Below, in pieces: positions 7,291 through 20,384 of a DNA stretch of 21,207 bases; positions within the stretch are counted from its first letter, which is position 1, and each line of letters opens with the position of its first letter. The notes under the pieces were generated by a model. The model saw nothing but the letters and a program-made list of their open reading frames with translations. It searched no databases and was not told where the DNA came from. Made by a program: the position numbers and the translations under genes. This stretch comes from a virus: positions 1-21,207 of the IMG/VR virus record IMGVR_UViG_3300032220_000894; one strand, given 5' to 3'.

Positions 7291-7306
7291 ATTTTTGGTA
7301 TACCAT

Positions 7307-7314
7307 TATTTATA
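7307..7314 (-). promoter_or_regulatory. T4-type late promoter for the fibre block
   Basis: An exact TATAAATA on the minus strand falls in the 26-nt gap between the GT2-TPR gene and the 212-residue structural gene, 16 nt before the ATG. It matches the T4 late consensus recognised by the gp55 sigma factor. A start site about 6-7 nt downstream would give a very short leader. A perfect 10-bp palindrome, tggtatacca (7296-7305), lies between the box and the ATG. Confidence 0.7.
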
Positions 7315-7316
7315 CC

Positions 7317-8525
7317 TCAACGATGTTTAATTTTTCGATCCTTGAACTTATTCTTTTTTTGTACTTCAGTTACTTGTTTTTGTACTTGCTGGACTTTCTG
7401 CGGATTGTCTTTTGCATATTGTTGCATTATTCTTTCATATTGAATATAGTTATTTTGAACTCTTGGCAATTCGTCAGGTGGAACAACTCCAGATGTTAAA
7501 AGTTTCTTAGATGCCAAATAACCAATATCTGGTCTTCCCGCAGAATAAGCAGTTGCTGAAACTTCATCTAATGCATGGAATGAATATATGATGTTTGGAA
7601 CAAACAAAATTTCATTTTGTGGAAATGGTATTTCTGCCGCTTGTCTTGCAAAAACAAATGCTGCTGCTGGTTGATTATACTTTTGACGCAAGACCTGAGA
7701 GATATGAACCAATGGTTCTGCTCTACTTGGTCTATAATTATACGCATCTAAGAATTTTTGTTGTATCTCAGGCCATGGTTTATCCAACATTGCCATAGAT
7801 ACGGCAATTCTATACATCGAATAATAAACCTCTTCAGGCCAACCACCCATATCAACACGCTTTTGATATGCCACTATCGCCTTTTCCCATTGTTGTGAGT
7901 CGAAGTAAGATTGACCAAGATAAAATTGGTATCTGGCATTAAATGGTTCATCAATTAATGCCTTCTCTAGAAGTTCTGCATCCTTTGTATATTTTTCTAC
8001 AGGAGTGATTCCAACATTTCTAGCACCAAGAGTTCTTGCATTCAAATAATAATCACCCTCAATCTTTGCAAGAGTTGGTTCTTTTACATCGGTTGCAGGA
8101 TATTCGTGTAGAACACCTTCATATCTCCAACGAGAGGCAGTCTTGAATACTTGTGTACGCCACCAAGAAAACTCTGGACGACCTAGACGAAGAACATATC
8201 CATCTGCATCCATGTTTGGTGGAAACTTAAAGTTGCCATCAATCTTGTCATCTGCATCGATCATCCAAGCATAGTCTGCTTTGTCATCGCAATGACGCAA
8301 TGCTAGACTTCTATTATGACCGAAACCCTTCCATTCATCTTGATGAAGTTCTCCTGGAATTCCCTTCCCTTCAAAGAACTTCTTAATTATATCTTGAGTC
8401 CCATCAGTAGACCCAGTATCTGATATTACCCAATAATCAATATGCTTATAAACAGATTCCAAGCATTCGTGAATAATATGAGATTCATTCTTAACAATCA
8501 TACACAGAGAAATAGTTTTCTTCAT
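7317..8525 (-). CDS. GT2 family glycosyltransferase with TPR-like C-terminal region
   Basis: This 402-residue protein begins with a GT-A domain: ISLCMIVKNESHIIHECLES (residues 5-24), SDTGSTDGT (35-43) and the metal/nucleotide-sugar motif IDADD (89-93). These features define family 2 transferases of the type fused to tetratricopeptide repeats. A helical-repeat region from about 180 onward includes FNARYQFYLGQSYFDSQQWE (195-214), a TPR-like unit. The C-terminus is Gln/Lys-rich (QQVQKQVTEVQKKNKFKDRK) and basic. The enzyme should move a sugar from a nucleotide sugar to an acceptor, and the TPRs suggest a protein or complex partner. It is the last glycan gene before the fibres and has a late promoter and a strong AAAAGGA Shine-Dalgarno sequence. 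The acceptor is not known. Confidence 0.88.
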   Translation of the reverse strand: MKKTISLCMIVKNESHIIHECLESVYKHIDYWVISDTGSTDGTQDIIKKFFEGKGIPGELHQDEWKGFGHNRSLALRHCDDKADYAWMIDADDKIDGNFKFPPNMDADGYVLRLGRPEFSWWRTQVFKTASRWRYEGVLHEYPATDVKEPTLAKIEGDYYLNARTLGARNVGITPVEKYTKDAELLEKALIDEPFNARYQFYLGQSYFDSQQWEKAIVAYQKRVDMGGWPEEVYYSMYRIAVSMAMLDKPWPEIQQKFLDAYNYRPSRAEPLVHISQVLRQKYNQPAAAFVFARQAAEIPFPQNEILFVPNIIYSFHALDEVSATAYSAGRPDIGYLASKKLLTSGVVPPDELPRVQNNYIQYERIMQQYAKDNPQKVQQVQKQVTEVQKKNKFKDRKIKHR

Positions 8526-8543
8526 GACAAAAATCCTTTTAAG

Positions 8544-8551
8544 TATTTATA
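8544..8551 (-). promoter_or_regulatory. T4-type late promoter for the GT2-TPR gene
   Basis: An exact TATAAATA on the minus strand lies 2 nt beyond the stop of the 57-residue gene and 18 nt before the ATG at 8525, in a 28-nt gap. An AAAAGGA ribosome binding site follows it. The placement mirrors that of the late promoter before the fibre block. Confidence 0.7.
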
Positions 8552-8553
8552 CA

Positions 8554-8727
8554 TTACCAACCAAGAAAAACATCTTTAGATTGAATTTTAAATTTAACAT
8601 TTTTATCCAAAGAATAGTTCTTTATTAGTTCTTTGCTATTAAATTGTTTTTTAAAAGTTGGTATAGAAATAATTGGATACCCGTCAAGGTATCCAATCAA
8701 ATAGTAAATTTTATTTTTTATATTCAT
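8554..8727 (-). CDS. Small 57-residue hypothetical protein
   Basis: Between the GDP-mannose epimerase gene and the GT2-TPR gene an open frame runs from ATG 8727 to TAA 8554. Its ATG overlaps the upstream TGA as ATGA, the coupling signal used elsewhere in this operon. Without it about 200 nt would be non-coding in an otherwise packed region. The product begins MNIKNKIYYLIGYLDGYPII and ends KDVFLGW. It is basic and rich in Lys, Ile and Tyr, with no clear signal peptide or full membrane span. I do not recognise it. A small partner or regulator of the neighbouring enzymes is possible, but that is a guess from position only. Confidence 0.65.
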   Translation of the reverse strand: MNIKNKIYYLIGYLDGYPIISIPTFKKQFNSKELIKNYSLDKNVKFKIQSKDVFLGW

Positions 8728-9752
8728 CTACGAAAGCGGTCTTCCATATCCAATTGAGCAGAATTGCAATATTCTACTTTATTTTGTTGCAAAACTTGCG
8801 ATTCTATCCAATCATATGTAGACTCCATTCCATCACGCAATGAGCGATAGTTTGGCAAACCAATCATTCGCTTGAACAACTTATTATCAGAATTTCTTCC
8901 ACGAACACCAACTGGTCCTGCAATGTTTTTGATATCAACATTCTTTCCAGAAATCTCAATTGCCATTTCTGCAAGATCATTGATCTTAATCATTTCTTCA
9001 GAACCAATGTTCACAGGAACAGTACAATCCGAATTCATAAGACGAATTGTAGCATCAACACAATCATCGATATACAAGAATGATCTAGTTTGCTGTCCAT
9101 CACCCCAGACTTCAATTTCTGATCCGTTCTCTACCTGTGCAACCTTTCTACACATTGCTGCTGGTGCTTTTTCCTTTCCACCCTGCCATGTTCCTTCTGG
9201 TCCAAAGATGTTGTGATAACGAGCAATTCTAACTCGCATTCCATGATTGCGAGCATATGCAAGATAGAGTCTTTCACTGAATAGTTTTTCCCAACCATAC
9301 TCGCTATCTGGTGCTGCTGGATATGCAGACTCCTCTGAGCATTTTGGATTGTCAGGATCTTCTTGGTTGTATGCTGGATACATACATGCCGAAGACGAGT
9401 AGAAGATCTTTCCTACTTTAGTCTTATGACATCTTTCTACGACATTCAAATTGATGAGTGCAGAATTGTGCATAATGTCAGCATCGTGTTCTCCAGTAAA
9501 AATATATCCAGCACCACCCATATCTGCTGCTAATTGATATACCTCATCGAACTGAACATCAAATGCCTTGTCACAAATTTGTTGTAGTCTCAAATCTCCG
9601 ATAATAAAATCATCTGCTGGAGACTTTGAAAATTCTGGATATTTAAGATCAACAACTCTTACCCAATGACCTTCTCTCTTGAATCGTTTTACAAGATGAG
9701 AACCAATAAAACCACCACCGCCAAGTACAAGAATCTTTTTCATATTAATCAT
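8724..9752 (-). CDS. GDP-mannose 3,5-epimerase-like NAD-dependent epimerase
   Basis: This 342-residue protein is an extended short-chain dehydrogenase. It has the NAD-binding GGGGFIG (residues 11-17), LAADMGGAGYIF (74-85), SSSACMYP with Cys123, YGWEK (152-156), the segment RYHNIFGPEGTWQGGKEKAP, WGDGQQTRSFLYIDD (216-230) and VRGRNSDNKL. This combination is characteristic of GDP-mannose 3,5-epimerase, which forms GDP-L-galactose (and GDP-L-gulose). Cys123 and Lys195 match the family's acid/base pair by pattern. The length is close to the usual one. Met1 and Met4 (ATG 9743) are both possible starts and neither has a clear Shine-Dalgarno sequence. It lies 5 nt after the FkbM gene. The likely role is supplying an L-sugar to the transferases of the island. 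Confidence 0.9.
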   Translation of the reverse strand: MINMKKILVLGGGGFIGSHLVKRFKREGHWVRVVDLKYPEFSKSPADDFIIGDLRLQQICDKAFDVQFDEVYQLAADMGGAGYIFTGEHDADIMHNSALINLNVVERCHKTKVGKIFYSSSACMYPAYNQEDPDNPKCSEESAYPAAPDSEYGWEKLFSERLYLAYARNHGMRVRIARYHNIFGPEGTWQGGKEKAPAAMCRKVAQVENGSEIEVWGDGQQTRSFLYIDDCVDATIRLMNSDCTVPVNIGSEEMIKINDLAEMAIEISGKNVDIKNIAGPVGVRGRNSDNKLFKRMIGLPNYRSLRDGMESTYDWIESQVLQQNKVEYCNSAQLDMEDRFRR

Positions 9753-9757
9753 CTATT

Positions 9758-10345
9758 TTAATTTTTAATTAAATCACTATGAATATAGTAATCATCAACA
9801 CTTGCTACATTTTGGATAAAAATATATCCTTTACTTTTTAAATATTCCCTAGATTCATTTATTCGTTGCAATCCACTTGAACCATCAAGAGGACAATCTC
9901 TATAACTGTCAACCTCAAATGTGATTACATTAAATTTATAAGTGTCAAAAGGAATTAAATATAAACATTTAAGTGTTACCGATGGTGGTTCTAAATCCAA
10001 ACTCAAATAGTCCATTGTAGTTGGACAATTGTGTTTCTTAAATAAATCCAAATAGTCAATTTTTAAACAATCTTCTATTAAATATTCAGTATTTGGTCTG
10101 AAAGATTTAAAATCTGTTTCTCCATTTGGAGCAGAATTTGGATCTAAAGAAGCATCTTGAATATCTACTGCTATTCCCTTCCAATTGAATTCCGATTCCA
10201 TCACATAGGTATTACTTATATGTCTTGGTGGTCCAGCACCCAAATCTACAAAATATCCATTTCTTTTGTATTTTAATACATTTAAAGTAAATCTATCTTG
10301 ACCATGTTGTGAACGCCACTTAATTTTATTGATGTCATTTTCCAT
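9758..10345 (-). CDS. FkbM-type SAM-dependent methyltransferase
   Basis: This 195-residue protein has an N-terminal SQHGQDRFTLNVL (residues 12-24) followed by the SAM-binding GYFVDLGAGPP (30-40) and NWKGIAVDIQ. It then has YLSLDLEPPS (about 113-122) and a later FNVITFEVDSYRDC. This order is that of FkbM-family methyltransferases, which often act on hydroxyl groups of sugars in polysaccharide clusters. The usual fold is covered, and no membrane segment is visible. A good AAAGGA ribosome binding site precedes the ATG. It is the first gene after the 91-nt gap and lies 5 nt before the GDP-mannose epimerase gene, so it may methylate a sugar made or transferred by its neighbours. The substrate is unknown. 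Confidence 0.82.
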   Translation of the reverse strand: MENDINKIKWRSQHGQDRFTLNVLKYKRNGYFVDLGAGPPRHISNTYVMESEFNWKGIAVDIQDASLDPNSAPNGETDFKSFRPNTEYLIEDCLKIDYLDLFKKHNCPTTMDYLSLDLEPPSVTLKCLYLIPFDTYKFNVITFEVDSYRDCPLDGSSGLQRINESREYLKSKGYIFIQNVASVDDYYIHSDLIKN

Positions 10346-10384
10346 AATATTTTTCTTTCCTTTGGTTATAATCCCATTAAAACT

Positions 10385-10412
10385 ATTTTACTATGTCTCA
10401 TTCTGTTATCAA
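10385..10412 (-). promoter_or_regulatory. Weak sigma70-like promoter candidate
   Basis: On the minus strand TTGATA (10412-10407) is followed after 16 nt by TAAAAT (10390-10385), each 5/6 to the bacterial -35 and -10 consensus. It lies in the largest gap in the window, ahead of the FkbM gene. In DNA this AT-rich the match is only suggestive, and the -10 overlaps one arm of an inverted repeat. Confidence 0.25.
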
Positions 10413-10436
10413 GTGATTTATAAAGAATAGTAAAAT
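10385..10436. repeat. 10-bp inverted repeat in the 91-nt intergenic gap
   Basis: The arms attttactat (10385-10394) and atagtaaaat (10427-10436) are perfect reverse complements separated by 32 nt. The upstream arm abuts the stop codon of the nucleotidyltransferase-HAD gene. Transcribed on the minus strand the arms could pair, and only a weak AGTTTTAA follows, so it is not a typical terminator. The loop also holds TATAAATC (10415-10422), a 7/8 late box. The rest of the gap, 10346-10384, shows only the FkbM gene's ribosome binding site. Confidence 0.5.
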
Positions 10437-11507
10437 TTATTTGAGGTATGGTTCAATTAATTGATTTCTTGGTATATTTATAGACAAGCAACTTGGAAAT
10501 GGATTGCTTGGAGCAAAATCATTTACTATTATTCTTTTCGAGTGTAAACAAGAATCAATTATCATTTTATAATTTATTTTATTATCTTTTAATAATTTTT
10601 TGTACATTTCCAAAGCATCATTTGGTCTTGATGTTACAAAAATAATCTCATGTCCATCATCTGATAATTGTTTTACTATTTTTAGATTTTCTTCTATTGG
10701 TTCTATGGTATTGTACCAATTTTTGCTGCCATATTTTCCTGTGTTTACCAATACAACGCCATCAATGTCTATAAAATATGTATTTTTAAGGTTTGCCGAA
10801 GAAAACCATTCTTCTTTAGTTCCCCAATCTATAAATTCTGTTGCATCTATCTCAACAAAAACTTTATTATCGGTATCAATAATGTCTGAAATTATATGAC
10901 TAAAATATAATTCTGTTCCTATAGTTTGATGCAAGCGAAAAAATGATTTTATAAAATCATAAGAATTCATCCCATACACTCCAAGACAAATCTTATCAGA
11001 AACTATTTTCTTTTCTACTATTTCTTGTATAATATTGTCTTGATTGACTAATATAAATGATTTTTGTTGAATATTTTTAATAGTGGAATTGACATCTATA
11101 CCAACAACAAAATTTGTCATATTTAGACTATTATATGATACTAAACAATCACAATCCTTTACTACTATTGGTCCACTAATATTTTCTTTTATTAAACAAT
11201 TATATACAGTTTCTGGACTACTATTTGTAGACTCTTCCATTATTACCACTTTATGTGATATATTATGAAAACATTGTTTCAATATTACATCTGCCTCATA
11301 TTTTTGGCAATGCTCTCTCAAAACTACAAAATAAATCATAGAATAATCATCGATAGATAATCCCTCTACAACCTTTTCGATCATTAATTTTCCAGATGGA
11401 TGTGTCAACATCCATTTTGGTTTCATATTTTGAAATCTTGAAGATTTTCCTGCTGCTGGTATTATTAAAATTGGTTTATTTTTGTTTTCACTTTTTGAAT
11501 CATGCAT
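10437..11507 (-). CDS. Nucleotidyltransferase fused to a HAD-type phosphatase domain
   Basis: This 356-residue protein has two enzyme domains. Residues 11-235 look like a sugar-phosphate/alkyl-phosphate nucleotidyltransferase: the glycine-rich IPAAGKSSRF (16-25) followed by KPK (29-31), a metal-site-like VKDCD (116-120) and the closing EFIDWGTKEEW (224-234). Residues 243-356 look like a HAD hydrolase: YFIDIDGVV (244-252, nucleophile Asp247), VTSRP (291-295), Lys324 and IIVNDFAPSNPFPS (326-339), as in small capsule-cluster HAD proteins. The first domain would make an NDP- or CDP-activated group and the second remove a phosphate. The start overlaps the upstream kinase gene by 43 nt. No in-frame ATG lies before the glycine-rich loop other than Met1. 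The substrate is unknown. Confidence 0.8.
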   Translation of the reverse strand: MHDSKSENKNKPILIIPAAGKSSRFQNMKPKWMLTHPSGKLMIEKVVEGLSIDDYSMIYFVVLREHCQKYEADVILKQCFHNISHKVVIMEESTNSSPETVYNCLIKENISGPIVVKDCDCLVSYNSLNMTNFVVGIDVNSTIKNIQQKSFILVNQDNIIQEIVEKKIVSDKICLGVYGMNSYDFIKSFFRLHQTIGTELYFSHIISDIIDTDNKVFVEIDATEFIDWGTKEEWFSSANLKNTYFIDIDGVVLVNTGKYGSKNWYNTIEPIEENLKIVKQLSDDGHEIIFVTSRPNDALEMYKKLLKDNKINYKMIIDSCLHSKRIIVNDFAPSNPFPSCLSINIPRNQLIEPYLK

Positions 11508-12190
11508 AATATAGTTTCTTTCTTTTCTGCTTTGACATATGGAATTATCCTATACAGATGTAACAACAACATAGAATAATGTTGTTTTGTATCGAATTTT
11601 TCGCAAACAGAAATCAATTTTCTTTTTGGTATATTTTGTTTAAATGACCAATAACAAAAAGCATCTTGTAACATTTTAGATTCATCGACTAATGGACAGT
11701 CCACAAATGAATCTAAAAAATCTATAAGATATACTTCGTTATTATTTATAATTACATTTTCAAAAGTTAAATCACCATGACAATAACCATCAGAGACAAT
11801 CCAAGATTGATTCTTTATGATCTCTAATGAATCATCATCAATGTTTATTTCTTTTGCCTTTTTCATTACTAATTCAAAAATATCTTTTTTATTTTCCGTT
11901 TTAAATGAAAATAAATCAATTATATTTTTACAAGATTTTAATGAATTCTGTTGAAAATAAATTGCTAAATTTACTCCAGGAATGTATTCCATATCAAAGT
12001 ACAACAAATCATTTTCAAATCCTGTTTGAAATACTTTTGGTGTTTTTATAAAGGGATGATTAAAATTTATTTGCTTATTTATTTGTTTTAACAATCTTTC
12101 ATTATATTCAATATTTTTAGACTGTTTCCGTATTGTCTTATCATCAACTAGTGTTACTTTACAACCAGAATTTCCAAATAAATTAATCAT
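11465..12190 (-). CDS. APH/choline-kinase-fold small-molecule kinase
   Basis: This 241-residue protein carries the catalytic loop YCHGDLTFENVII (residues 136-148) with Asp140 and Asn145, and the metal-binding LIDFLDS (155-161). These are the marks of the aminoglycoside phosphotransferase/choline kinase superfamily. The N-lobe includes TLVDDKTIRKQ (13-23, with a candidate ATP-binding Lys) and the hinge-like YFDMEYIPG (64-72). It is somewhat short for the family. The phosphorylated substrate may be a sugar, choline, ethanolamine or another alcohol. It lies 1 nt after a methyltransferase gene and overlaps the nucleotidyltransferase-HAD gene, so a kinase-then-nucleotidyltransferase activation route is a reasonable inference. 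Confidence 0.78.
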   Translation of the reverse strand: MINLFGNSGCKVTLVDDKTIRKQSKNIEYNERLLKQINKQINFNHPFIKTPKVFQTGFENDLLYFDMEYIPGVNLAIYFQQNSLKSCKNIIDLFSFKTENKKDIFELVMKKAKEINIDDDSLEIIKNQSWIVSDGYCHGDLTFENVIINNNEVYLIDFLDSFVDCPLVDESKMLQDAFCYWSFKQNIPKRKLISVCEKFDTKQHYSMLLLHLYRIIPYVKAEKKETILCMIQKVKTKINQF

Positions 12191-12191
12191 A

Positions 12192-12869
12192 TTACTTTTT
12201 GATAAAAGGCATTATTTGTGTTTTAAATGATGTAAACGATGTTGCAAATGGTTCGTCTACAATCATATTGTTCTTTTGAATTGGTATTTGTATTGAATCC
12301 ATAATCAATTCAGTTCCCCAATCATGAACTGCTATGCAGTCTCCAGGTTTAATAATTTCAGAATAAATCCAAAACTCTTTTATTTTATCTCCACCATCAC
12401 AAAATATAAAAGTCTTTTTGTCAGAAACATTTAATTTAATATGTTCTATTACTTCCCGAGAAAAAGAATTTCCATGATAAGAATTTACAAAAGGAGAAAT
12501 TTTGGATATTTTATCTAACCAATGCCCACAACCTTCATTCGTTCTAGAATAATAATCCACATAAGGATTCAATTCAAAAGTATCAAAATAAAATCTTTCA
12601 GTTATTGCTGCCATGTTAGCAAAATATGTACTCAATGCTCCTTTTTGAGTTCCAATTTCGACAATATATTCAAATCTATGAGTATCTATATAATACTCTA
12701 AAATTGGTATGGCAAATTGATTTTGTGACATACCACCACCCATATATTTGTGATTTATACTCAATAAATCATTTATATTAATAACTACATTTTTAAATAA
12801 ATCTCTAGGAATTTTTACATTAGATCCGTGTTCTTTGTTAAAAATTGTTTTGTCGTATTGTGTATTCAT
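12192..12869 (-). CDS. Class I SAM-dependent methyltransferase (CmcI / Methyltransf_24-like)
   Basis: This 225-residue protein has the SAM-binding motif YIVEIGTQKGALSTYFAN (residues 68-85), an acidic FELNPYVD (98-105), FIFCDGGDKIKEFWIYSE (154-171) and GDCIAVHDWGTE (176-187). The CDGG...HDWG arrangement resembles the cephalosporin hydroxylase CmcI-like methyltransferases common in bacterial polysaccharide loci. Length is normal. Its leader shares the 13-nt sequence AAACTATATTATG with the nucleotidyltransferase-HAD gene. It probably methylates a sugar or another surface group, but the substrate cannot be read from the sequence. Confidence 0.75.
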   Translation of the reverse strand: MNTQYDKTIFNKEHGSNVKIPRDLFKNVVININDLLSINHKYMGGGMSQNQFAIPILEYYIDTHRFEYIVEIGTQKGALSTYFANMAAITERFYFDTFELNPYVDYYSRTNEGCGHWLDKISKISPFVNSYHGNSFSREVIEHIKLNVSDKKTFIFCDGGDKIKEFWIYSEIIKPGDCIAVHDWGTELIMDSIQIPIQKNNMIVDEPFATSFTSFKTQIMPFIKK

Positions 12870-12881
12870 AATATAGTTTTC

Positions 12882-13784
12882 TTAAAAGTATTTAGAAAAT
12901 CCTTTTTGTGGATTGTATTTAGATTCTGTTTTTTCTATTTGTTCTTCATAAAAATAATGTTTCAAACCCATATACAATGGATATGGATATCTTCCATTGT
13001 CATATGGCAATCTTTTTATCCATATCATATCGATCTTTGGAAATGTTTTAAACATCTTTTCTCTGAGTTCTTCATATACTGCAAGTGCTTCATTTCTTTT
13101 TGGAGATATTGTATACAAATATTCTGGTTGATTTTGATAATGAATTTCTATTCTTTCATCAAATTTTCTCATGTAATTCAATCCAATCCAAGAAGGAATA
13201 TTAAATTTATCATCATAATATGATGAATCTCCATTTGGTGGTAAATCAAATATATGTTGATTTAAATAATCACAAGAAAAAACTTTATTTATATCTTCCG
13301 TATAACCCCACCAGATATGATCTTGAAGTAAATAAGGACGATCTGCATCAATGCCATGCACAAAAATATATCCCTTTGGTGAAGTTCCATCTGTAAATTT
13401 TATATTTACATCATCAACATAAAAATCAACAAAAGATTTCATCATGCATAATGAGTTAGGAAATATGAGTTGATCACTTCTCATCTTAACCGCATATTTA
13501 GATGTACAATGCTTAAGTCCTTCCTTTGTACTCTTAAGTTGAAGATTCATATTGTTATAGTGGGGTGTTATTTTTTCACTTTGAATTATAACAATTCTTT
13601 CATTGTCCTTGTACTTGTCTGGAATAGGTTCTTCGTTCCATGTGGAAACTATTACTTTATTTACGAACCACACCTTTGAATATTCATTTGCAATATCAAG
13701 AGTATCAATTAGAGAACGATTATAATAATTTTGTGAAATTGGTCCTTGCAATATTATATCGGTATCTCTTTCAAAAATTTTCAT
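12882..13784 (-). CDS. WavE-like polysaccharide biosynthesis protein
   Basis: This 300-residue protein starts MKIFERDTDIILQGPISQNY and has VIVSTWNEEPIP (44-55) and YAVKMRSDQLIF (97-108). This combination (ILQGPI, VSTW, KxRSDQ) matches the WavE lipopolysaccharide synthesis family, named for a Vibrio cholerae core-LPS gene. The family is thought to be glycosyltransferase-like, although no strict DxD is obvious here. The C-terminus is basic and aromatic (YPLYMGLKHYFYEEQ). An AAAGG Shine-Dalgarno sequence lies before the ATG. It is separated by 12 nt from each neighbouring gene. Its reaction is not established in the family, so the role is inferred from context. Confidence 0.78.
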   Translation of the reverse strand: MKIFERDTDIILQGPISQNYYNRSLIDTLDIANEYSKVWFVNKVIVSTWNEEPIPDKYKDNERIVIIQSEKITPHYNNMNLQLKSTKEGLKHCTSKYAVKMRSDQLIFPNSLCMMKSFVDFYVDDVNIKFTDGTSPKGYIFVHGIDADRPYLLQDHIWWGYTEDINKVFSCDYLNQHIFDLPPNGDSSYYDDKFNIPSWIGLNYMRKFDERIEIHYQNQPEYLYTISPKRNEALAVYEELREKMFKTFPKIDMIWIKRLPYDNGRYPYPLYMGLKHYFYEEQIEKTESKYNPQKGFSKYF

Positions 13785-13796
13785 ATAAAATAACCT

Positions 13797-14414
13797 TTAA
13801 TTTCTTTTTAATATTGTTAATCCATTGCAATTTGTAAAAATTTTATCTATGGACCATTCAGAATTAGCAATTAAAAATTCAGAAATTGCTGCCTGCAATC
13901 CTCTTTTTATCGTTACTGACTTTGACAGTTTGGATCCCAAATCTTCATGTATCTCATCAATAAATCCATAGGTAGTTGTATCGTGAAAAATTATATATTT
14001 TTTTGCTTTATTTCCATGAAGTTTTAATTCTTCACTCAATTGTCTATAAACATGCAGTGTATCTATAAACAATAAATCCGTCTCTTCAATATTCATATCA
14101 AGACTGTCGCCTAAAATAAATGAATAATTTATATTATTATTTTTAGCATAATCATTTAAGTCATTTAATCTTTCATCAACATTATATTTTTTATCCCAAT
14201 CTGTTGGATGTTTTATATCAATCGAAACTAATTTATTAGGATTTGCAAGTATGAATGGATAAGTTGATATGACCCATCGAACTCCAAGTTCTGTTATGTG
14301 TTTACAATCTTTTGCATATTCCAATAAAGTTGGAATATGCTCATTAATATCAGAAGGAGTATTTACAAAATGTTCGTATGTTTTAAGTATTTTATCATTG
14401 ATGGTATTGTTCAT
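13797..14414 (-). CDS. Class I SAM-dependent methyltransferase (Methyltransf_24-like)
   Basis: This protein of about 205 residues has HITELGVRWVISTYPF (residues 39-54; ELGVR is the SAM-loop signature of this family), LVSIDIKHP (62-70), DLLFIDTLHVYRQLSEEL (113-130) and KYIIFHDTTTYG (139-150). The pattern is that of class I methyltransferases often found in marine bacterial and phage glycan clusters. ATG 14414 is chosen because it overlaps the epimerase stop as ATGA and has GGAAAG 7 nt upstream. A TTG at 14429 would add five residues with no benefit. The substrate is unknown, probably a sugar hydroxyl or amine. Confidence 0.75.
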   Translation of the reverse strand: MNNTINDKILKTYEHFVNTPSDINEHIPTLLEYAKDCKHITELGVRWVISTYPFILANPNKLVSIDIKHPTDWDKKYNVDERLNDLNDYAKNNNINYSFILGDSLDMNIEETDLLFIDTLHVYRQLSEELKLHGNKAKKYIIFHDTTTYGFIDEIHEDLGSKLSKSVTIKRGLQAAISEFLIANSEWSIDKIFTNCNGLTILKRN

Positions 14415-15409
14415 TTGTTCACTTTCCAAAAATTATACATTCCAACATCCAACTCATATTTGGACCAAAGTTTTCTTTCTCTCATTGGTTGTTTCTTTGC
14501 CCATTCCCACATTAAAGACAATCCATCCCGCAAAGATGTTGTCTGTTTATAGTTTAAAATATTTTTAATCTTGTCGTGTGTAACCCATGCATGTTTTACT
14601 TCATGTCTTTGTTCTAGATGAGTCTTTGTTCCAGATCCAATTACATCTATGAGCAAATCACAAGCATCACTTATCGTGATGTGGTCATCTCCACCAATAT
14701 TAAATATTTGTTTTGATGCTCTTTCATCTACTGCTCCCATCCAAAAATAAGGAACACAATCATCAATATAACTAAATGCTCTAGTTTGACTACCATCTCC
14801 ATAAATTGTCATTGGCATATTATTTAAATGCTGATACATCCAAATTCCAATAACATTTCTGTATTTATCCCATATGTTTTGATTTGCTCCATAAACATTA
14901 TGTGGTCTAAAAATACACCAATCTAAACCATGCTGATCTCCCGCAACATGTATATCCATCTCACATGCATATTTTGCTATTCCATATGGATCAATTGGTT
15001 CTTGTTTGTAATCTTCTCGGAATGGGACTTCCGCATTTCCATAAACTGCCATAGTTGAAGTAAAAACAAATCTTTTTATACTGTATTTGATTGAAAGATT
15101 AATTAATTTAGTGGTCGCAATTAGATTGTTTTCATAATTATATTGACGAATAAATGGACTCAATCCTTCAGCAGCATATGCTGCAAAATGAAAAACATAA
15201 TCAAACTTATGATTTTCAAATAGTTTTTCTACTTTATTTTTATCACTGGCAAGATTGATCTTGTAAAATTTTACCTTTTTATTTACATTCTCAATATAAC
15301 CACCAGATAGATCATCAATACCATATACTTCAGCCTTATTGTTTTGAATGATCCAATCTGCTAATCTGGACCCAAGTAGTCCAGCAACTCCTGTAATTAA
15401 AACTTTCAT
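14411..15409 (-). CDS. GalE-like NAD-dependent nucleotide-sugar epimerase
   Basis: This 332-residue extended SDR has GVAGLLG (residues 7-13), an NAD-ribose-binding acidic region YGIDDLSGG, HFAAYAAEG, FTSTMAVYG, the catalytic YxxxK in DPYGIAKYA, RPHNVYGANQNIWDKY and YGDGSQTRAFSYIDD. The layout fits UDP-glucose 4-epimerase and related nucleotide-sugar epimerases or dehydratases. Length is typical. It probably supplies a modified nucleotide sugar, but substrate choice between UDP-, dTDP- and GDP-sugars is not visible. Both ends are ATGA overlaps, so it is translationally coupled to the DUF5672 gene upstream and the methyltransferase downstream. Confidence 0.83.
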   Translation of the reverse strand: MKVLITGVAGLLGSRLADWIIQNNKAEVYGIDDLSGGYIENVNKKVKFYKINLASDKNKVEKLFENHKFDYVFHFAAYAAEGLSPFIRQYNYENNLIATTKLINLSIKYSIKRFVFTSTMAVYGNAEVPFREDYKQEPIDPYGIAKYACEMDIHVAGDQHGLDWCIFRPHNVYGANQNIWDKYRNVIGIWMYQHLNNMPMTIYGDGSQTRAFSYIDDCVPYFWMGAVDERASKQIFNIGGDDHITISDACDLLIDVIGSGTKTHLEQRHEVKHAWVTHDKIKNILNYKQTTSLRDGLSLMWEWAKKQPMRERKLWSKYELDVGMYNFWKVNK

Positions 15410-16098
15410 ATAGTCTCCAATAGTTTAAATTTGTCTGGGTGTGACTCATCACAATGAAATCCAAATGTATTATCTGAACTTAAATTTATTCCATCCACAT
15501 TTTTTATCTCACAAGAAAATTTAAAAGCAACTTCAGTTGGGGCGAAAACAAAACCTTCTTCTTCCAATTGCTTTCTCATACAAACTGCTATAACAAGATC
15601 TTCAGGAATTGCATCATATTCTGATATATACAATTCAGAAACTCTCTTCATTAATTTACTAGACCTTAATGTAAATCCACCATTGCCTACATTATATTCT
15701 AAATTAGATTCAGTTAAATGTCTATGAACAATAGGCCATTTTGTAGTATTGTGATACATATTTGCCCTATTCCACGATGCGCCAATATAATCATACTTTA
15801 AAAATTCATTATTCCATAAATGTGGATTTACTACAAATCCGTCATTTTGAATCAGTAACATATACTTCGTATCGATATGCTTTGGTAAAATAGTTAATGT
15901 AAATTTTTGACACTCATTCCAACTCATTTTTTCTATTAAAATTTTTTCACTATTTTCCAATTCATAATCAGAACAAGTGAAATATTTAATCGAATTAAAG
16001 TCAATATTTTTGATGGAATACTTAACTGCCTTCAGTAAAAGTTGATCGTTTCCAACCCCATCAATAGCAACTAAAGTCACATCATTTAAGTTAAGCAT
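15406..16098 (-). CDS. DUF5672 family, glycosyltransferase-like protein
   Basis: About 230 residues begin MLNLNDVTLVAIDGVGN. Conserved blocks are KYMLLIQNDGFVVNP (78-92), KYDYIGASW (101-109), VGNGGFTLRSSKL (137-149) and PEDLVIAV (165-172). These match the DUF5672 pattern (QxDG, DYIGA, GNGGFSLRS, ED) found in surface-glycan loci, which resembles a GT-A transferase with the QNDG in place of a DxD. ATG 16098 is preferred. It overlaps the upstream gene's end by 8 nt and keeps the expected N-terminus, whereas an ATG at 16170 would add 24 residues inside the upstream gene. The donor and acceptor are unknown. Confidence 0.75.
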   Translation of the reverse strand: MLNLNDVTLVAIDGVGNDQLLLKAVKYSIKNIDFNSIKYFTCSDYELENSEKILIEKMSWNECQKFTLTILPKHIDTKYMLLIQNDGFVVNPHLWNNEFLKYDYIGASWNRANMYHNTTKWPIVHRHLTESNLEYNVGNGGFTLRSSKLMKRVSELYISEYDAIPEDLVIAVCMRKQLEEEGFVFAPTEVAFKFSCEIKNVDGINLSSDNTFGFHCDESHPDKFKLLETI

Positions 16099-16462
16099 AT
16101 GACTTTTCTTCTTTGATGTTCGAATTTGATAAATTATTAATTCGATTCTTAACAGCAAATCTACGATCATTTGTCATGTAGACGGATCTTGCAAGTTCAA
16201 TGAATTCCTCATCGAATTCTAATCTTGATTCTTTAATTCTGATCTCATCTTCAATCTTCCACAATTGTGAATTAATATCTTTGAGTTCTGCAATTTCAGC
16301 AGAAAACTCATTAAGATAATTCATCTTTTCCAGTTCTTTTCGAATTATAAATTTTTCTTTTTTGATATTATACAACTTAGAGGAATCTGTAATATGTTCT
16401 TCTTTAATTTCTAAAATTGTATATTTGTCTATTAATTCACCATTTGAGATTTCAATCATCAT
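16091..16462 (-). CDS. DUF6165-like protein
   Basis: About 123 residues begin MMIEISNGELIDKYTILEIK. The GELIDKxTILEIK opening is the hallmark of DUF6165-like proteins, which occur in glycan gene clusters. The rest is a highly charged helical protein (KEKFIIRKELEKMNYLNEF, AELKDINSQLWKIEDEIR), probably a helical hairpin or coiled coil, with a basic stretch SVYMTNDRRFAVKNRIN. Its function is not known, and it may be a partner of the neighbouring transferases. ATG 16462 overlaps the upstream stop as ATGA. ATG 16477 is possible but would add five residues that the family does not need. Confidence 0.7.
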   Translation of the reverse strand: MMIEISNGELIDKYTILEIKEEHITDSSKLYNIKKEKFIIRKELEKMNYLNEFSAEIAELKDINSQLWKIEDEIRIKESRLEFDEEFIELARSVYMTNDRRFAVKNRINNLSNSNIKEEKSYA

Positions 16463-17208
16463 AGTATATAATTCCATTCTTTTTTGTAAATGTGACTCAC
16501 ATAAGAAAAATCAATGTGTTGATTTTGCCCGTTGATTCTGCGCGAATACATGAACAACTTGCTATTCTTATTTATACGCTCTACCAGATAGCACATTGAG
16601 GTTTCCACAGTGTGTATTTCTTTTGCATTCTCAAGAACCCAACACAAATCAAACAGATTAAATTGATTTATATGTTCAATTTTGTGATATACTTTCTTGA
16701 GAGAGGTTTCTATGTGCATTTCTCTTCTATAGATGCTTGGTGGAGATGCAAACATATCATTAATGAATATGAATTCTTCCCCATCTTCTATGCCTAGAAT
16801 CTCTTTACATCGTTTTTCTCGTTCAGGATTTCTCTTGAAGTTTAAATAATTCACCCAATCTGAACTTTCAATACTGTATCCTAATTTTTGAAACAAAGGA
16901 TACTTTGCTCTCATAGCAGAACTACGGTAGTTGTTATCTAAAAACAAATGTGCATGATGTAGTGGAAAATATATCATTTCATCGGTTTTGATAATATCAC
17001 TTCTTCCATAATATTCAAACCCATCAAAATGATTATTAACATCACAAAATTCTATATGGGGAATATAGTCTTTAACATAAAGAAATTCAGGAATCACAGG
17101 CCAAACAACACGATATCCCAGATCAAGAAAATGTTGTGCTGCCTTCTGGAGATATAAGATATCTCCCATTCCTGCTGGTTGCCAGAATAAGACAAATTTA
17201 TTTTGCAT
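16459..17208 (-). CDS. GT-B-like glycosyltransferase (heptosyltransferase-like)
   Basis: About 249 residues begin MQNKFVLFWQPAGMGDILYL. GMGDILYLQKAAQHF followed by GYRVVWPV resembles the N-terminal GxGDxLxxxPxxxxL motif of GT9-type transferases such as heptosyltransferases. The C-terminal half has FIFINDMFASPP and FDLCWVLENAKEIHTVETSM, similar to the donor-binding half of such enzymes, in which a conserved sequence near an ..A..hT.. motif contacts the nucleotide sugar. At about 250 residues it is shorter than a usual GT9 (about 330). ATG 17208 has GGAAA 7 nt upstream and is preferred over a TTG at 17220. It overlaps the upstream gene by 11 nt. The sugar is unknown. Confidence 0.62.
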   Translation of the reverse strand: MQNKFVLFWQPAGMGDILYLQKAAQHFLDLGYRVVWPVIPEFLYVKDYIPHIEFCDVNNHFDGFEYYGRSDIIKTDEMIYFPLHHAHLFLDNNYRSSAMRAKYPLFQKLGYSIESSDWVNYLNFKRNPEREKRCKEILGIEDGEEFIFINDMFASPPSIYRREMHIETSLKKVYHKIEHINQFNLFDLCWVLENAKEIHTVETSMCYLVERINKNSKLFMYSRRINGQNQHIDFSYVSHIYKKEWNYIL

Positions 17209-17866
17209 GTTTGTTTCCAACTAAATTAAATTTTACAACATTATCATTGAGTCCCATTTCTCTTAATCCCTTTTCTTTGGACTCACCATCCGCTATACCC
17301 ATAGTAATCATGGGTTCCATATTTGGTGGAATACTAGTACCAGGCCATATTGCATAATTAATTCCCAATTGTACTATTGTTAATTTTGGAACATATAACG
17401 GCAAAACTTTCTGCATTAAAACTTCATGATCAAAAAGTTTTCCACCTTCATTAATATTTTTGGTACATTCATCAACCCAACATTGTACAAATTCTAAAAT
17501 AATTGGTTTGTATGTAAAATATATTGGCGATGCCTTTGGATAATTAACTGGTATAAATTGTGGTATTCCCTGATACGCAAAAGCAATGTCACATTTATCT
17601 TCGATTTCATCGTAAACCTTTAATTCGCGATGAATCAATGAATCTACATCCATCCACACGAAAGGCCTTTTCTTTTCGTTTAGAATATCCAAAATAAATT
17701 GTGGTTTAGATAAGCAATTTAAACGATATTCTCCCTTCGATGGAAGTTCACGAATATCGTGTTTCATGTTATTTTCATTACAATTAATTCTCAATCTTCT
17801 AGCATGGTCGCTGTAGTAAGTACGATTATCAATATCACAATAAAAAGATACAATTTCAGTTTTCAT
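17198..17866 (-). CDS. Putative nucleotide-sugar transferase with DVD motif
   Basis: This 222-residue protein has the GT-A-type signature RPFVWMDVDSLIHRE (residues 67-81), where DVD would bind the metal and sugar nucleotide. Before it is KPQFILDILNEKKRP, a helix leading to the DxD typical of PF03407-like or GT8/GT32-like transferases. Later blocks are DIAFAYQGIPQFIPVN, a Glu/Asp-rich YVPKLTIVQLGINYAIWPG, and a Lys-rich end. An AAAGGA Shine-Dalgarno sequence lies 6 nt upstream of the ATG. It starts 2 nt after its neighbour and overlaps the following gene by 11 nt. A glycosyltransferase role is likely. The donor cannot be named. Confidence 0.7.
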   Translation of the reverse strand: MKTEIVSFYCDIDNRTYYSDHARRLRINCNENNMKHDIRELPSKGEYRLNCLSKPQFILDILNEKKRPFVWMDVDSLIHRELKVYDEIEDKCDIAFAYQGIPQFIPVNYPKASPIYFTYKPIILEFVQCWVDECTKNINEGGKLFDHEVLMQKVLPLYVPKLTIVQLGINYAIWPGTSIPPNMEPMITMGIADGESKEKGLREMGLNDNVVKFNLVGNKHAK

Positions 17867-17868
17867 AA

Positions 17869-18705
17869 TTATCCTTTATATCCATACATTCTTTTAAAGA
17901 ATTCTAATGTCTTTATATCTACTTGTCTATATGCTTTGTCAGTTTTTACAAAATTATCAATAGCAGACAACATAAACTTAGTGTCTTCCATTTTATACTT
18001 TTTAATAGTAGTTCCACCCTTTCCCTCTATTGGACAGGAATAATGAATAATTGGATAGTCATCTACTGACATTCCTGATGGATTTTCTTTATAATTATCC
18101 ACAAACCAACAAGCTGCTCCTAAATTTTCATACTTTATTTTTAAATTTAAACATGCAGAAGAAAAACCAAGACACAACAATTCAGTCATCCACCAAGTAG
18201 TTTTCTTTCTTATAATTTGCTCAGACTTCATTGCTATTTTAAATAAATTTGAATATATATTACCTTTTGCATAGAATGGGGTGTGTATAGTCACAGGATT
18301 TCTCAAATCAATATTTTTTGATTGTTTAAAAATATCAAAGTTTGAATCATCAAAAAGTTCCCAAAATTTCTGCCAATTTCCCCCACCAACCCATTTTTGA
18401 GTCACTATTTCATTATCACCAACTAAAATTGGTTTATATTGTTTGTGAAAAAACATATCACAATCCAATAAACAAATAGTTTCATTTTCTAACCTATTAT
18501 TTTTGATATATTCAATTATACCAATATAACGATTATACATTGCATAATCATCCACACAATCATATTGTTTAAACTTTTTTCTTTCATTAGTTTTTACAAT
18601 AATTAATGGGTCTTTTATACCAACTTCTTTATGAGATCTCACCAGAAAGTCTGCTTGAACAAGCATATCTTTTCGCAATGGATCAGCGTGAGCTAAGTAT
18701 ATCAT
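17869..18705 (-). CDS. Putative GT-A glycosyltransferase with DCD motif
   Basis: This 278-residue protein has ETICLLDCDMFFHKQYKP (residues 75-92), a typical GT-A strand-DxD context (Asp81, Asp83). Conserved-looking blocks follow: VTQKWVGGGNWQKFWELF, TIHTPFYAKGNIYSNL, TTWWMTELLCLGFSSACL and the metal-site-like PIIHYSCPIEGKGG. The His in the last block could be the second metal ligand often found in such enzymes. Its ATG overlaps the GT10 gene's stop as ATGA, so the two are coupled. I do not recognise the exact CAZy family. Confidence 0.7.
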   Translation of the reverse strand: MIYLAHADPLRKDMLVQADFLVRSHKEVGIKDPLIIVKTNERKKFKQYDCVDDYAMYNRYIGIIEYIKNNRLENETICLLDCDMFFHKQYKPILVGDNEIVTQKWVGGGNWQKFWELFDDSNFDIFKQSKNIDLRNPVTIHTPFYAKGNIYSNLFKIAMKSEQIIRKKTTWWMTELLCLGFSSACLNLKIKYENLGAACWFVDNYKENPSGMSVDDYPIIHYSCPIEGKGGTTIKKYKMEDTKFMLSAIDNFVKTDKAYRQVDIKTLEFFKRMYGYKG

Positions 18706-19556
18706 AAACCTTGTATTAGTTTATATAAAACATCATCAGCAGACAACATCTTTTGTACTCGTTCGAAGTTGTCCTGTATTGCTTCTTTTTTACTTTCGTA
18801 TAGTTCGGGAGTCAATATTGAGATGTCAAAATCTGGAGTCAATTCAATCATTCCATCAAGATTGAACATGTCTCCAATGTCGGGAGTACCCCAATATACT
18901 GGAATAGTTCCCGTAACAAAGGCATCAGTCAATTTTTCGGTGAAGTATGTTTCGTACTTGTCATTTTCAATAACAAATGAGAACATGTAGTCGTTAAGTC
19001 CCTCAGACTTGTCTCCCCAAGGCACATTGCCACCAATGCGCTTTGATCCCAGAACACCACCATACAAATCTACCTTGTCTTTGTATTTCTCTGCCATTGT
19101 GTGACGCAGAGCGTGACCAAATGCAAAGTTCTTTGGAGATGCGATCAGAGAAACCAATTTAGTCTTTGAAAAGATCTGTTGATCCTTAATCCAAGGCAAA
19201 TTGCTTCCTGCATAGCAGAAATGCATCTTTGGATTCTTTCCAACATAAGACCGTTCAGATGTAAAGATTGCATCGTAGGATTCGCAAACTTTATCCAAAT
19301 GTGCATCCCACAAATCTCTAGGAACTCCTCTGGTTCCTGGAGCCATTGAGTGAAATATGGTCCTGGATTCACAAACCCAACCAATTTTCAGTTCTCCTGG
19401 TTTTTTCTTCTGTTGCATACCATGAATTATAGCACCGTCATGGTATACCTTTATCGATTGCTCTTCGTCAGTCCACTCGAATAACTGTGGTTTTTTATTC
19501 GAACATGAAGAATATCTAGTTTCGAAGGGTGCGCCGATTGCTTGTAATCTATCCAT
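18702..19556 (-). CDS. GT10 (alpha-1,3-fucosyltransferase-like) glycosyltransferase
   Basis: This 284-residue protein contains the GT10 donor-binding region FSFVIENDKYETYFTEKLTD (residues 192-211) followed by AFVTGTIPVYWGTPDI (212-227). Its core, FxxxxEN...YxTEKxxxA...G.xPVxxG, is the diagnostic signature of fucosyltransferases. The N-terminal half holds KIGWVCESRTIFHS and SYDAIFTSERSYV, as expected for acceptor-side strands. GT10 enzymes use GDP-L-fucose, and some can use GDP-L-galactose. No fucose-synthesis genes are in the window, but a GDP-mannose 3,5-epimerase is. A strong AAAGGA ribosome binding site precedes the ATG. It is the first gene after regA and the head of the island. Confidence 0.85.
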   Translation of the reverse strand: MDRLQAIGAPFETRYSSCSNKKPQLFEWTDEEQSIKVYHDGAIIHGMQQKKKPGELKIGWVCESRTIFHSMAPGTRGVPRDLWDAHLDKVCESYDAIFTSERSYVGKNPKMHFCYAGSNLPWIKDQQIFSKTKLVSLIASPKNFAFGHALRHTMAEKYKDKVDLYGGVLGSKRIGGNVPWGDKSEGLNDYMFSFVIENDKYETYFTEKLTDAFVTGTIPVYWGTPDIGDMFNLDGMIELTPDFDISILTPELYESKKEAIQDNFERVQKMLSADDVLYKLIQGL

Positions 19557-19577: not shown

Positions 19578-19976
19578 TCACTTTCCTATATGGTATTTAG
19601 GTATGAGATCCCAAGAGGATTTGTCTTTATGTGGTATGATTTTTAATCTTGCTAAAGAAAGTTGTGGTTCTTTGTACTTATCTGGATTTACAGGTTTTAC
19701 TAGACCCCACTCGGTCAACAGTCTGACTATAGTATTTCTCCTACCCAAGTCATCCGTAGACATGTCACTCTCTAACCCATCAAGTATAAACATCTCCTTA
19801 AAGTGCATAATTGCATACCTACCGCGCTTATGCAATATATGGCAACTTTGATATAGTTTATTTTCTTTTTTAGATGAAACTCCAACCCGCGTTAAAGTTT
19901 CTTTAATTTTTAAGAAGTCCTCTTCTGATTTTAAAGTGACTTCCACTCCCAATCCCTCAAAAATATCTTCTGTCAT
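19578..19976 (-). CDS. regA: RegA translational repressor of early genes
   Basis: This 132-residue protein matches T4 RegA (122 residues) along its length. Shared blocks include VTLKSEEDFLKIKETLTR (residues 13-30), LYQSCHILHKRGRYAIMHFK (42-61), LLTEWGLVKP and a closing SWDLIPKYHIG. RegA binds AU-rich translation-initiation regions of early phage mRNAs, including its own and the gp44 mRNA, and blocks translation. The protein has about ten extra N-terminal residues (MTEDIFEGLG) relative to T4, and no internal Met offers a shorter start. A GGGAG Shine-Dalgarno sequence lies 6 nt before the ATG. It follows gp62 as in T4, but in T4 the next gene is the DNA polymerase, and here it is a glycosyltransferase. 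Confidence 0.95.
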   Translation of the reverse strand: MTEDIFEGLGVEVTLKSEEDFLKIKETLTRVGVSSKKENKLYQSCHILHKRGRYAIMHFKEMFILDGLESDMSTDDLGRRNTIVRLLTEWGLVKPVNPDKYKEPQLSLARLKIIPHKDKSSWDLIPKYHIGK

Positions 19977-20012: not shown

Positions 20013-20384
20013 TTATCTTTTTTGACCCCCTTTTTGGACAAAATCCTTCATTTTGTCCATTGGTAGCAAATCAACAATTTCTCTTGCTTTTGCGTCAGAA
20101 TATCCAAAAATTTCTTTAACAATCTCTATATTTTTATCTTCCTCTGGTTTTACCCACTTGGAGAATCTTTTCCTCTTGGATATGGAAGATAGCAAATAAT
20201 CATATTGCATCCTCTTATCCAAAAAAGGAACCTGATTCATTCTGTTGGCATAGAACACAGTATCTGGAAAATATGAAAAACACTTATTAATGACAAAAGG
20301 AACATATTCCTTTTCCAAACGAGAATCGCCTTTCAGCAAATTATCTTTGGATTGGTTTATTGAATTTAAAAAGTCGGATAGCAT
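20013..20384 (-). CDS. 62: Clamp loader small subunit gp62
   Basis: This 123-residue protein sits between gp44 and RegA exactly as T4 gene 62 does. Recognisable blocks are VPFVINKCFSYFPDTVFYAN (residues 28-47), MNQVPFLDKRMQYDYLLSSI and KRKRFSKWVKPEED, which match the conserved N-terminal part of gp62. It is much shorter than T4 gp62 (187 residues), so it appears to keep only the core that contacts gp44. In T4, gp44 and gp62 form a complex (4:1) that opens and loads the gp45 sliding clamp. Its ATG lies 1 nt after the gp44 stop, so its translation is probably coupled to gp44. Confidence 0.88.
   Translation of the reverse strand: MLSDFLNSINQSKDNLLKGDSRLEKEYVPFVINKCFSYFPDTVFYANRMNQVPFLDKRMQYDYLLSSISKRKRFSKWVKPEEDKNIEIVKEIFGYSDAKAREIVDLLPMDKMKDFVQKGGQKR

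Follow-up and report, generated by a model that had tools for sequence, protein, structure and literature searches.

The window analysed here is the whole of virus record IMGVR_UViG_3300032220_000894: 21,207 bases of linear sequence from an uncultured T4-like virus, probably a fragment, for which a megablast search against 50,697 phage records returned no near-identical named phage. At 7317–19556 on its minus strand lies an island of 16 open reading frames (ORFs), all co-directional and with intact frames, of which 15 encode at least 128 amino acids and one, at 8554–8727, encodes 57. The island is bounded by regA, gp62 and gp44 on one side and by fibre-like ORFs on the other, and its GC content is 25–28% in the middle against roughly 35–39% at the edges. 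A sequence-only reading of this DNA had proposed a one-strand run of 16 glycan-synthesis genes between the replisome block and the fibre genes; all 16 ORFs were found, and the intact frames speak against the inactivating mutations that it had raised as an objection. The features, from the replication genes to the fibres, are as follows, with E-values in brackets and glycosyltransferase abbreviated as GT.

20386–21207, minus strand: gp44, clamp loader large subunit, running off the contig end (Pfam AAA 6.7e-16, Gp44_lid 2.6e-14).
20013–20384, minus strand: gp62, clamp loader small subunit (Pfam Phage_clamp_A 1.8e-13).
19578–19976, minus strand: regA, the conserved left edge (Pfam Translat_reg 2.7e-39; 62% identity to Sinorhizobium phiM12).
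18702–19556, minus strand: GT10 (fucosyltransferase-type) transferase, first gene after regA (Pfam 1.2e-7; about 40% to cyanophage proteins).
17869–18705, minus strand: GTa2, a presumed transferase (cluster in 3 of the 35 islands compared below).
17198–17866, minus strand: GTa1, a conserved transferase of predicted GT-A fold (cluster in 26 of 35).
16459–17220, minus strand: protein labelled GT-B-like by the sequence-only reading (cluster in 4 of 35).
16091–16477, minus strand: DUF6165 protein (Pfam 1e-11).
15406–16170, minus strand: DUF5672 protein, with an actual start that is probably more internal (Pfam 3.4e-21).
14411–15409, minus strand: Epi2, an SDR nucleotide-sugar epimerase or dehydratase (Pfam Epimerase 7.4e-46).
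13797–14429, minus strand: presumed methyltransferase, label unconfirmed (cluster in the window only, 1 of 35).
12882–13784, minus strand: WavE-like lipopolysaccharide (LPS) synthesis protein (Pfam WavE 7.5e-13).
12192–12869, minus strand: presumed methyltransferase, label unconfirmed.
11465–12190, minus strand: APH-type small-molecule kinase (Pfam APH, 23.9 bits against a cut-off of 23.2, which it barely clears).
10437–11507, minus strand: nucleotidyltransferase–HAD fusion (HAD part phrog_1238, 2e-12).
9758–10345, minus strand: FkbM-like presumed methyltransferase, label unconfirmed.
8724–9752, minus strand: GDP-mannose 3,5-epimerase (GME; about 60% to cyanophage homologues).
8554–8727, minus strand: the 57-amino-acid ORF (ORF call; present in relative L090 at 84%).
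8544–8551, minus strand: T4-type late-promoter motif TATAAATA, 26 nucleotides (nt) ahead of the GT2-TPR start.
7317–8525, minus strand: GT2-TPR, a GmaR/SunS-like putative polypeptide glycosyltransferase, the conserved right edge (Pfam GT2 3.2e-13, with profile and fold matches).
7307–7314, minus strand: late-promoter motif TATAAATA, 24 nt ahead of the first fibre ORF.
6652–7290, minus strand: fibre/baseplate-like ORF (phrog_18186, 1.3e-8).
5144–6652, minus strand: virion structural-like ORF (phrog_697, 5.9e-30).
1038–1466, minus strand: c7, a small protein (phrog_1084, 1.3e-17; cluster in 12 of 35).
1–1035, minus strand: collagen-like fibre protein with Gly-X-Y repeats, cut by the contig end, a candidate glycan acceptor (tail-fibre PHROGs).

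This arrangement recurs in relatives. Of 306 loci found by a regA search, the 80 best were kept; 30 regions were fetched, and 26 of them (L089, L103, L109 and L113 being extensions) joined eight earlier loci and the window in a set of 35 islands or part islands. The GT10 gene lies directly after regA in 66 of the 80 relatives, near-copies included. A search for GT2-TPR in the 35 records gave 27 clear matches, two weak ones (about 24% identity) and none in six, and the eight records without a clear match all end within about 12.7 kb of regA. Where contigs reach far enough, the cassette lies between regA and a conserved GT2-TPR. We call complete the 27 of 35 islands, window included, in which GT2-TPR was found, so that the GT2-TPR ending is partly a matter of definition. 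Complete islands, with regA excluded and GT2-TPR included, measure 7.2–15.8 kb and hold 10–17 genes of at least 100 amino acids, with an interior GC content of 26–32% and no opposite-strand genes called by an ORF picker that favours the regA strand.

The place of the island is unusual. In T4, gp43 follows regA; the orders in Sinorhizobium phiM12 (regA-dut-gp43) and Pelagibacter HTVC008M (regA-small ORF-gp43, with no island at regA) likewise keep gp43 close to regA. In the relatives, a B-family polymerase gene was found in 5 of the 35 records, always past GT2-TPR and, by subtraction, about 19–32 kb from regA.

Between its fixed edges the island turns over. The interior genes of all 35 islands (419 genes) fall into 117 clusters, and for 10 pairs of islands whose GT2-TPR proteins are at least 85% identical the mean Jaccard index of interior content is 0.28, the pairs sharing members; for this and for the motif, GME/GT10 and collagen counts below, the near-duplicates L087, L091, L099 and L110 were dropped, while the 35-island cluster counts retain them. 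Four island genes are not in common between the window and its relative L090, and identity across the shared island genes ranges from 26% to 93%: GT10 61%, GTa1 68%, the GT-B-like protein 47%, DUF6165 89%, Epi2 26%, WavE 41%, the ORF at 12192–12869 41%, the kinase 64%, nucleotidyltransferase–HAD 90%, GME 93%, the small ORF 84% and GT2-TPR 70%, with regA at 84%. Identities that jump in this way within an operon suggest that single genes or small gene groups were exchanged recently. The sequence-only reading had conceded that it would fail if these were ordinary core genes of all close relatives; conservation of the edges (GT10 in 66 of 80, GT2-TPR in 27 of 35) counts against it there, and for the interior, which is not conserved, it stands. 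Functionless stuffer DNA retained for genome size, an idea raised for cyanophage LPS clusters in PMC3037559, is highly improbable here: frames are intact, edges are conserved, active-site motifs are retained and genes are exchanged under a constant design.

What, then, does the island modify? The first line of evidence is the homology of GT2-TPR. Its DxD-type motif, IDADD, is retained in 22 of 22 aligned sequences, and the GT domain is followed by a helical domain (helices at 175–400 of the model) in which TPR profile hits stay below Pfam cut-offs and TPR chains are matched in the Protein Data Bank (PDB). A 22-sequence profile of GT2-TPR matched GmaR (1.7e-15), SunS (6.5e-12) and 7msk (ThuS, 1e-8) in the PDB, against 0.016 for TarS of wall teichoic acid, a cell-wall polymer, and as a single sequence GT2-TPR again had GmaR as its best match (7.9e-10). 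Its AlphaFold2 model, with a predicted local distance difference test score (pLDDT) of 87.6, gave Foldseek matches to SunS (5.7e-16) and ThuS (3.8e-14), the next enzyme being RmlT (5.6e-7). Judged by sequence and model, GT2-TPR is a remote relative of the SunS/GmaR/ThuS polypeptide transferases, SunS itself excluded. GmaR has the same order of domains, GT then TPR: flagellin is glycosylated by the N-terminal GT domain, and recognition of the substrate protein is the role proposed for the TPR (PMC9638930).

Second, GT2-TPR shares a putative late signal with the fibre genes. The window holds seven copies of TATAAATA, which we take to be the T4 late-promoter motif, at 6696–16576 and all on the coding strand; 3.5 are expected by chance over both strands, and at least seven occurred in 3 of 100 shuffles. 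Across the non-duplicate loci the motif occurs 59 times on the coding strand and 20 times on the opposite one. Counted as exact copies at most 60 nt upstream of an ORF in those loci, it precedes GT2-TPR in 11 of 23 islands (in 7 of these the distance is exactly 26 nt) and the first fibre ORF in 9 of 20, compared with 5 of 63 later fibre ORFs, 6 of 336 interior genes and 2 of 31 first genes after regA (Fisher test against interior genes, 5e-11 for GT2-TPR and 3e-9 for the first fibre ORF, genes being taken as independent). A second sample came from a GT2-TPR search of 80 loci, 14 of which, on contigs already used, were set aside; here the motif stands before GT2-TPR in 17 of 66 fresh loci, a weaker signal yet above the interior rate, in counts that are not independent given near-copies such as L125–L130. 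Within the sister group L101, L102, L104–L107 and L112, an exact copy is present in L106 only.

Third, collagen-like fibre genes lie on the GT2-TPR side of the island. We required eight Gly-X-Y triplets in a row for neighbourhood counts and six triplets for the survey of triplet composition. Collagen-like ORFs follow GT2-TPR in 10 of the 11 loci with at least 4 kb of downstream sequence; none was found in 23 interiors or, for the 25 of 80 loci with enough sequence, in the 8 kb before regA. In the second sample they occur in 37 of 46 downstream stretches and 4 of 58 upstream ones, the four upstream cases (L140, L155, L156 and L167) all being loci without the cassette. The collagen-like ORF of the window has 42 Gly-X-Y triplets, 14 of them GPT, and matches tail-fibre PHROGs with scores that the repeats may inflate. 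GPT, GNT or GAT triplets abound in many loci of the window's group; in other loci GPQ, GEQ or charged triplets are frequent. The GPT repeats of BclA, from the Bacillus exosporium, are glycosylated; by analogy only, a GPT-rich collagen-like phage fibre may also bear an oligosaccharide.

Fourth, GT2-TPR keeps its place beside the fibre in viruses that lack the cassette. The 80 loci from the second search include six without the cassette (L139, L140, L141, L155, L156 and L167; L156 is a shorter copy of L155). In all six the order is regA, a gap of 15–28 nt, GT2-TPR and a c7-like protein, and a collagen-like fibre comes next in five of them (L156 ends too early). BLAST against the island clusters, which is not a full family search, found no other island-cluster lookalikes in these stretches, and a GT10 gene was found in 0 of the 4 cassette-less records searched against 10 of 10 large records. 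The cassette-less viruses nest as one supported group inside the midpoint-rooted GT2-TPR tree, which suggests that the cassette was lost or relocated in that lineage. The natural partner of GT2-TPR thus seems to be the fibre, with the cassette as an apparent addition, and the lineage supports a fibre acceptor for GT2-TPR.

The same lineage can be read another way: GT2-TPR alone would put a single sugar on the fibre, and the cassette would be a separate locus, for a host-surface or other glycan, in the same recombination hot spot. Retention of GT2-TPR without the cassette fits this, as does a late motif that marks GT2-TPR and the fibres and seldom the interior genes. Against it, all 27 complete islands consist of a single co-directional run ending at GT2-TPR, a count that is GT2-TPR-defined and made with the strand-favouring picker, and in the window GT2-TPR lies 28 nt from the preceding ORF. 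We regard such a division of labour as rather improbable.

Fifth, no export machinery was found in the islands. Hydropathy found at least two membrane segments in 0 of 446 island genes (near-duplicates counted), with one borderline segment in three; as a control from E. coli K-12, the RfbX flippase gave 9, the WbbH polymerase 6 and WzxC 7, while eleven soluble neighbours gave none. Neither PF02397, a lipid-initiating family, nor PF01943, a flippase family, was found in any of 10 relatives of 63–157 kb, records that are possibly incomplete, with the flippase search covering PF01943. Given these absences, a phage-encoded Wzx/Wzy O-antigen machine is unlikely, and what remains is cytoplasmic assembly, with either a protein or the host LPS core as acceptor.

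The second of these acceptors defines a serious rival, if an unlikely one: that the island remodels the LPS core or O-chain of the host surface, for example against superinfection or re-adsorption of progeny, with GT2-TPR as one transferase among others. Enzymes of LPS-core synthesis are likewise soluble and can rely on the host for export, so the missing membrane proteins tell against a phage O-antigen machine and not against editing of host LPS, a route that needs no phage flippase. The WavE and GT25 matches are to LPS-type enzymes, and the authors of the pelagimyophage study interpret their own glycosyltransferases as acting on the host surface (PMC7029224). On the other side, the right-edge gene is closest to polypeptide transferases, it carries a late motif, as the fibres do, in about half of the islands, it stays beside the fibres without the cassette, and neither PF02397 nor PF01943 appears in the large relatives. 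We favour the virion over the host surface because of the GT2-TPR homology, the late-promoter motif, the fibre neighbourhood and the missing membrane proteins.

Taking these together with the observed design of the locus and the turnover of its interior, we hold with moderate confidence that the island is a variable glycan-assembly locus for virion fibres with an exchangeable cassette. Late in infection, GT2-TPR would attach a first sugar, taken directly from a nucleotide sugar, to a neighbouring fibre protein, most likely the collagen-like fibre, which is Thr-rich in the window. The enzymes encoded between regA and GT2-TPR would then extend and decorate that sugar in the cytoplasm, in an order of steps that we infer. 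In the window the donor is probably GDP-L-galactose or a related sugar, made by GME and used by GT10. Swapping of the interior between viruses would leave close relatives with different fibre glycans, much like serotypes, and the gain may be a changed adsorption range or fibres hidden from recognition. It is thus probable that these viruses dress their fibres in sugars that differ from strain to strain, comparable to the variation of surface antigens in bacteria. More tentatively, and at somewhat less than an even chance, we propose a phage 'serotype locus': an exchangeable cassette of soluble enzymes set between replication genes and a late polypeptide glycosyltransferase, giving each strain its own oligosaccharide coat on a collagen fibre through O-antigen-like swapping.

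Besides the LPS-type families and the solubility of LPS-core enzymes, several observations weigh against fibre glycosylation. The Foldseek TM-score of the GT2-TPR model to SunS is low, at 0.58; against the NCBIfam SunS model TIGR04195, GT2-TPR scores 28.3 bits where the cut-off is 350; and a specificity control, in which two presumed GT2 proteins of the island were compared with the PDB, returned nothing useful. An exact late motif is lacking at GT2-TPR in 12 of 23 islands and 49 of 66 fresh loci, and even a copy with one mismatch is lacking in 8 of the 23. Collagen-like fibres are common in phages; the first collagen-like ORF is not Thr-rich in a sister group and in the cassette-less lineage; and no collagen-like ORF was found in the 7.6 kb of L092 or in 9 of 46 fresh loci. 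In three distinct cassette-less loci (L140, L155 with its copy L156, and L167), collagen-like ORFs occur before regA too, upstream of gp44. Finally, because some viruses retain GT2-TPR and lack the cassette, the two may not be coupled.

The enzyme families of the interior bear on one further possibility, namely that the sugars modify phage DNA, like glucose in T4. We scanned representatives of 114 of the 117 interior clusters, the other three being window proteins scanned separately. Among the matches listed, which for two of the scans are the 25 commonest of 62 and of 50 families, are GT2, GT6, GT10, GT11, GT25, GT34 and GT47, epimerases, GDP-mannose dehydratase, DegT aminotransferase, NeuB, UDP-galactopyranose mutase, a thiamine pyrophosphate (TPP) enzyme and several methyltransferase families. 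The island adjoins replication genes, and a 2024 paper cited in PMC12619734 concerns, by its title, virus transferases that add varied glycans to DNA. The many nucleotide-sugar, aminotransferase and methyl-transfer families suit oligosaccharides better, and the thymidylate-synthase family PF00303, which includes deoxycytidine monophosphate hydroxymethylase, was found in none of 27 and none of 10 records of relatives (two in both counts, all possibly incomplete), and we give DNA modification a very low probability. The same listed matches also include domains that are odd for a phage glycan island: DmpG/acetaldehyde dehydrogenase, ketopantoate hydroxymethyltransferase and dehydroquinate synthase.

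In the window, hidden Markov model or profile matches back the sequence-only labels of GT10, GT2 with TPR, two SDR epimerases, WavE, DUF5672, DUF6165, the APH-type kinase and nucleotidyltransferase–HAD. Six proteins had no family match in Pfam, PHROG or NCBIfam at the thresholds used: the three 'methyltransferases' and the 'GT-B-like' protein, whose labels thus find no backing, and GTa2 and GTa1. That reading had named the last two as a pair of DxD transferases; GTa2 stays unmatched, and GTa1 alone of the six is placed, through its predicted GT-A fold. The GTa1 model (pLDDT 89.8) matches BoGT6a (6.6e-8) and the capsid-glycosylating GT of PBCV-1 (2p6w, 2e-7) in Foldseek, so that it is near GT6 enzymes and the PBCV-1 enzyme at the level of predicted fold only; no phage matches to GTa1 were found.

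The ORF at 8724–9752 matches plant GDP-mannose 3,5-epimerase in the PDB (2c59, 2.5e-89), well ahead of the next kind of SDR enzyme (4e-28), and retains C123, Y152, K195 and R286, the C, Y/K, K and R residues expected to be catalytic. Its predicted product from GDP-mannose should be GDP-L-galactose (or GDP-L-gulose). GT10 enzymes use GDP-L-fucose and some accept GDP-L-galactose, so GME and GT10 may act in series. With the crude motifs used, 22 of 23 complete non-duplicate islands have a GT10-cluster gene and 7 a GMD-like motif, whereas the GME motif is present in only 2 (window and L090), and in 1 of 8 partial islands. GT10 thus does not always accompany a recognised GDP-sugar enzyme, and the L-galactose idea is limited to a few islands. 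No GDP-mannose-making gene was identified among the island genes, the one nucleotidyltransferase having no assigned role, and the earlier claim of a complete pathway fails on this point. L143 and L077 represent a sublineage with short islands of about 5–7 kb, and L077 is without a GT10-cluster gene.

Parts of this picture are known already: phage virion glycosylation, cyanophage LPS clusters and pelagimyophage recognition islands. Mycobacteriophages reportedly use few transferases, whereas the window's group has an exchangeable cassette of 10–17 genes with sugar-nucleotide enzymes beside fibre genes. Glycans on phage virion proteins, as we propose for the island, are described for those mycobacteriophages (Freeman 2023, cited in PMC12619734, which also reports four core glycosyltransferase groups in 'Moraphages'). 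Pelagimyophages are likewise T4-like aquatic phages with fibres and glycosyltransferases in a hypervariable host recognition cluster, which PMC7029224 reads as modifying the host O-chain and places between VrlC and gp14. The window island lies elsewhere, between regA and the fibres, and all 5 records that show gp43 have it past GT2-TPR; the island differs further in its conserved edges and polypeptide-transferase-like last gene. A variable island that includes fibre and collagen-like genes is also described in freshwater actinophages (PMC10202952).

The sequence-only reading had called the gene set unusual even for marine phages, which does not hold: S-SSM7 has a run of 14 genes, nine of them annotated as epimerases or as sugar or methyl transferases, and PMC3037559 describes large LPS clusters of S-SSM7, P-SSM2 and S-SM2, near hli03 or phoH, whose function is not known. 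Those clusters resemble the island in their epimerase and transferase runs, with homologues of the window's GME and GT10, and differ in location and in that GT2-TPR has no cyanophage match among its 10 records. GmaR, SunS and ThuS share with GT2-TPR a GT2 domain followed by TPR-like helices and are its best profile and fold matches; GT2-TPR is remote from them and far below the NCBIfam SunS cut-off. Bacterial O-antigen loci have conserved edges and a low-GC exchangeable interior, as the phage islands do, and differ from them in encoding multi-span membrane proteins. That O-antigen-like design is not found in the literature searched, from which subscription papers were mostly absent; nor is a regA-to-GT2-TPR locus or a GmaR/SunS-like phage transferase beside collagen fibres. 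If our reading is right, fibre specificity in this aquatic phage group would be set by a glycan in addition to the protein sequence, with gene exchange varying the glycan. It would account for long runs of phage 'LPS' genes without export machinery, and would offer a concrete acceptor, along with soluble cassettes for glycosylation that come with a candidate enzyme for attachment to protein.

Some smaller observations concern individual proteins. Epi2 has UDP-glucose 4-epimerase (4zrm, 1.1e-46) as its nearest PDB entry. The APH-type kinase gave nothing informative against solved structures, and nucleotidyltransferase–HAD, with no PDB match as a single sequence, matched 4evw (2.1e-19) once relatives were added to the profile. 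These two form a pair (10437–12190) shared with L090, at 64% and 90% identity, whose product could be an activated small-molecule decoration. The small protein c7 stands directly after GT2-TPR in a number of relatives and has a weak likeness to a tail-fibre assembly family.

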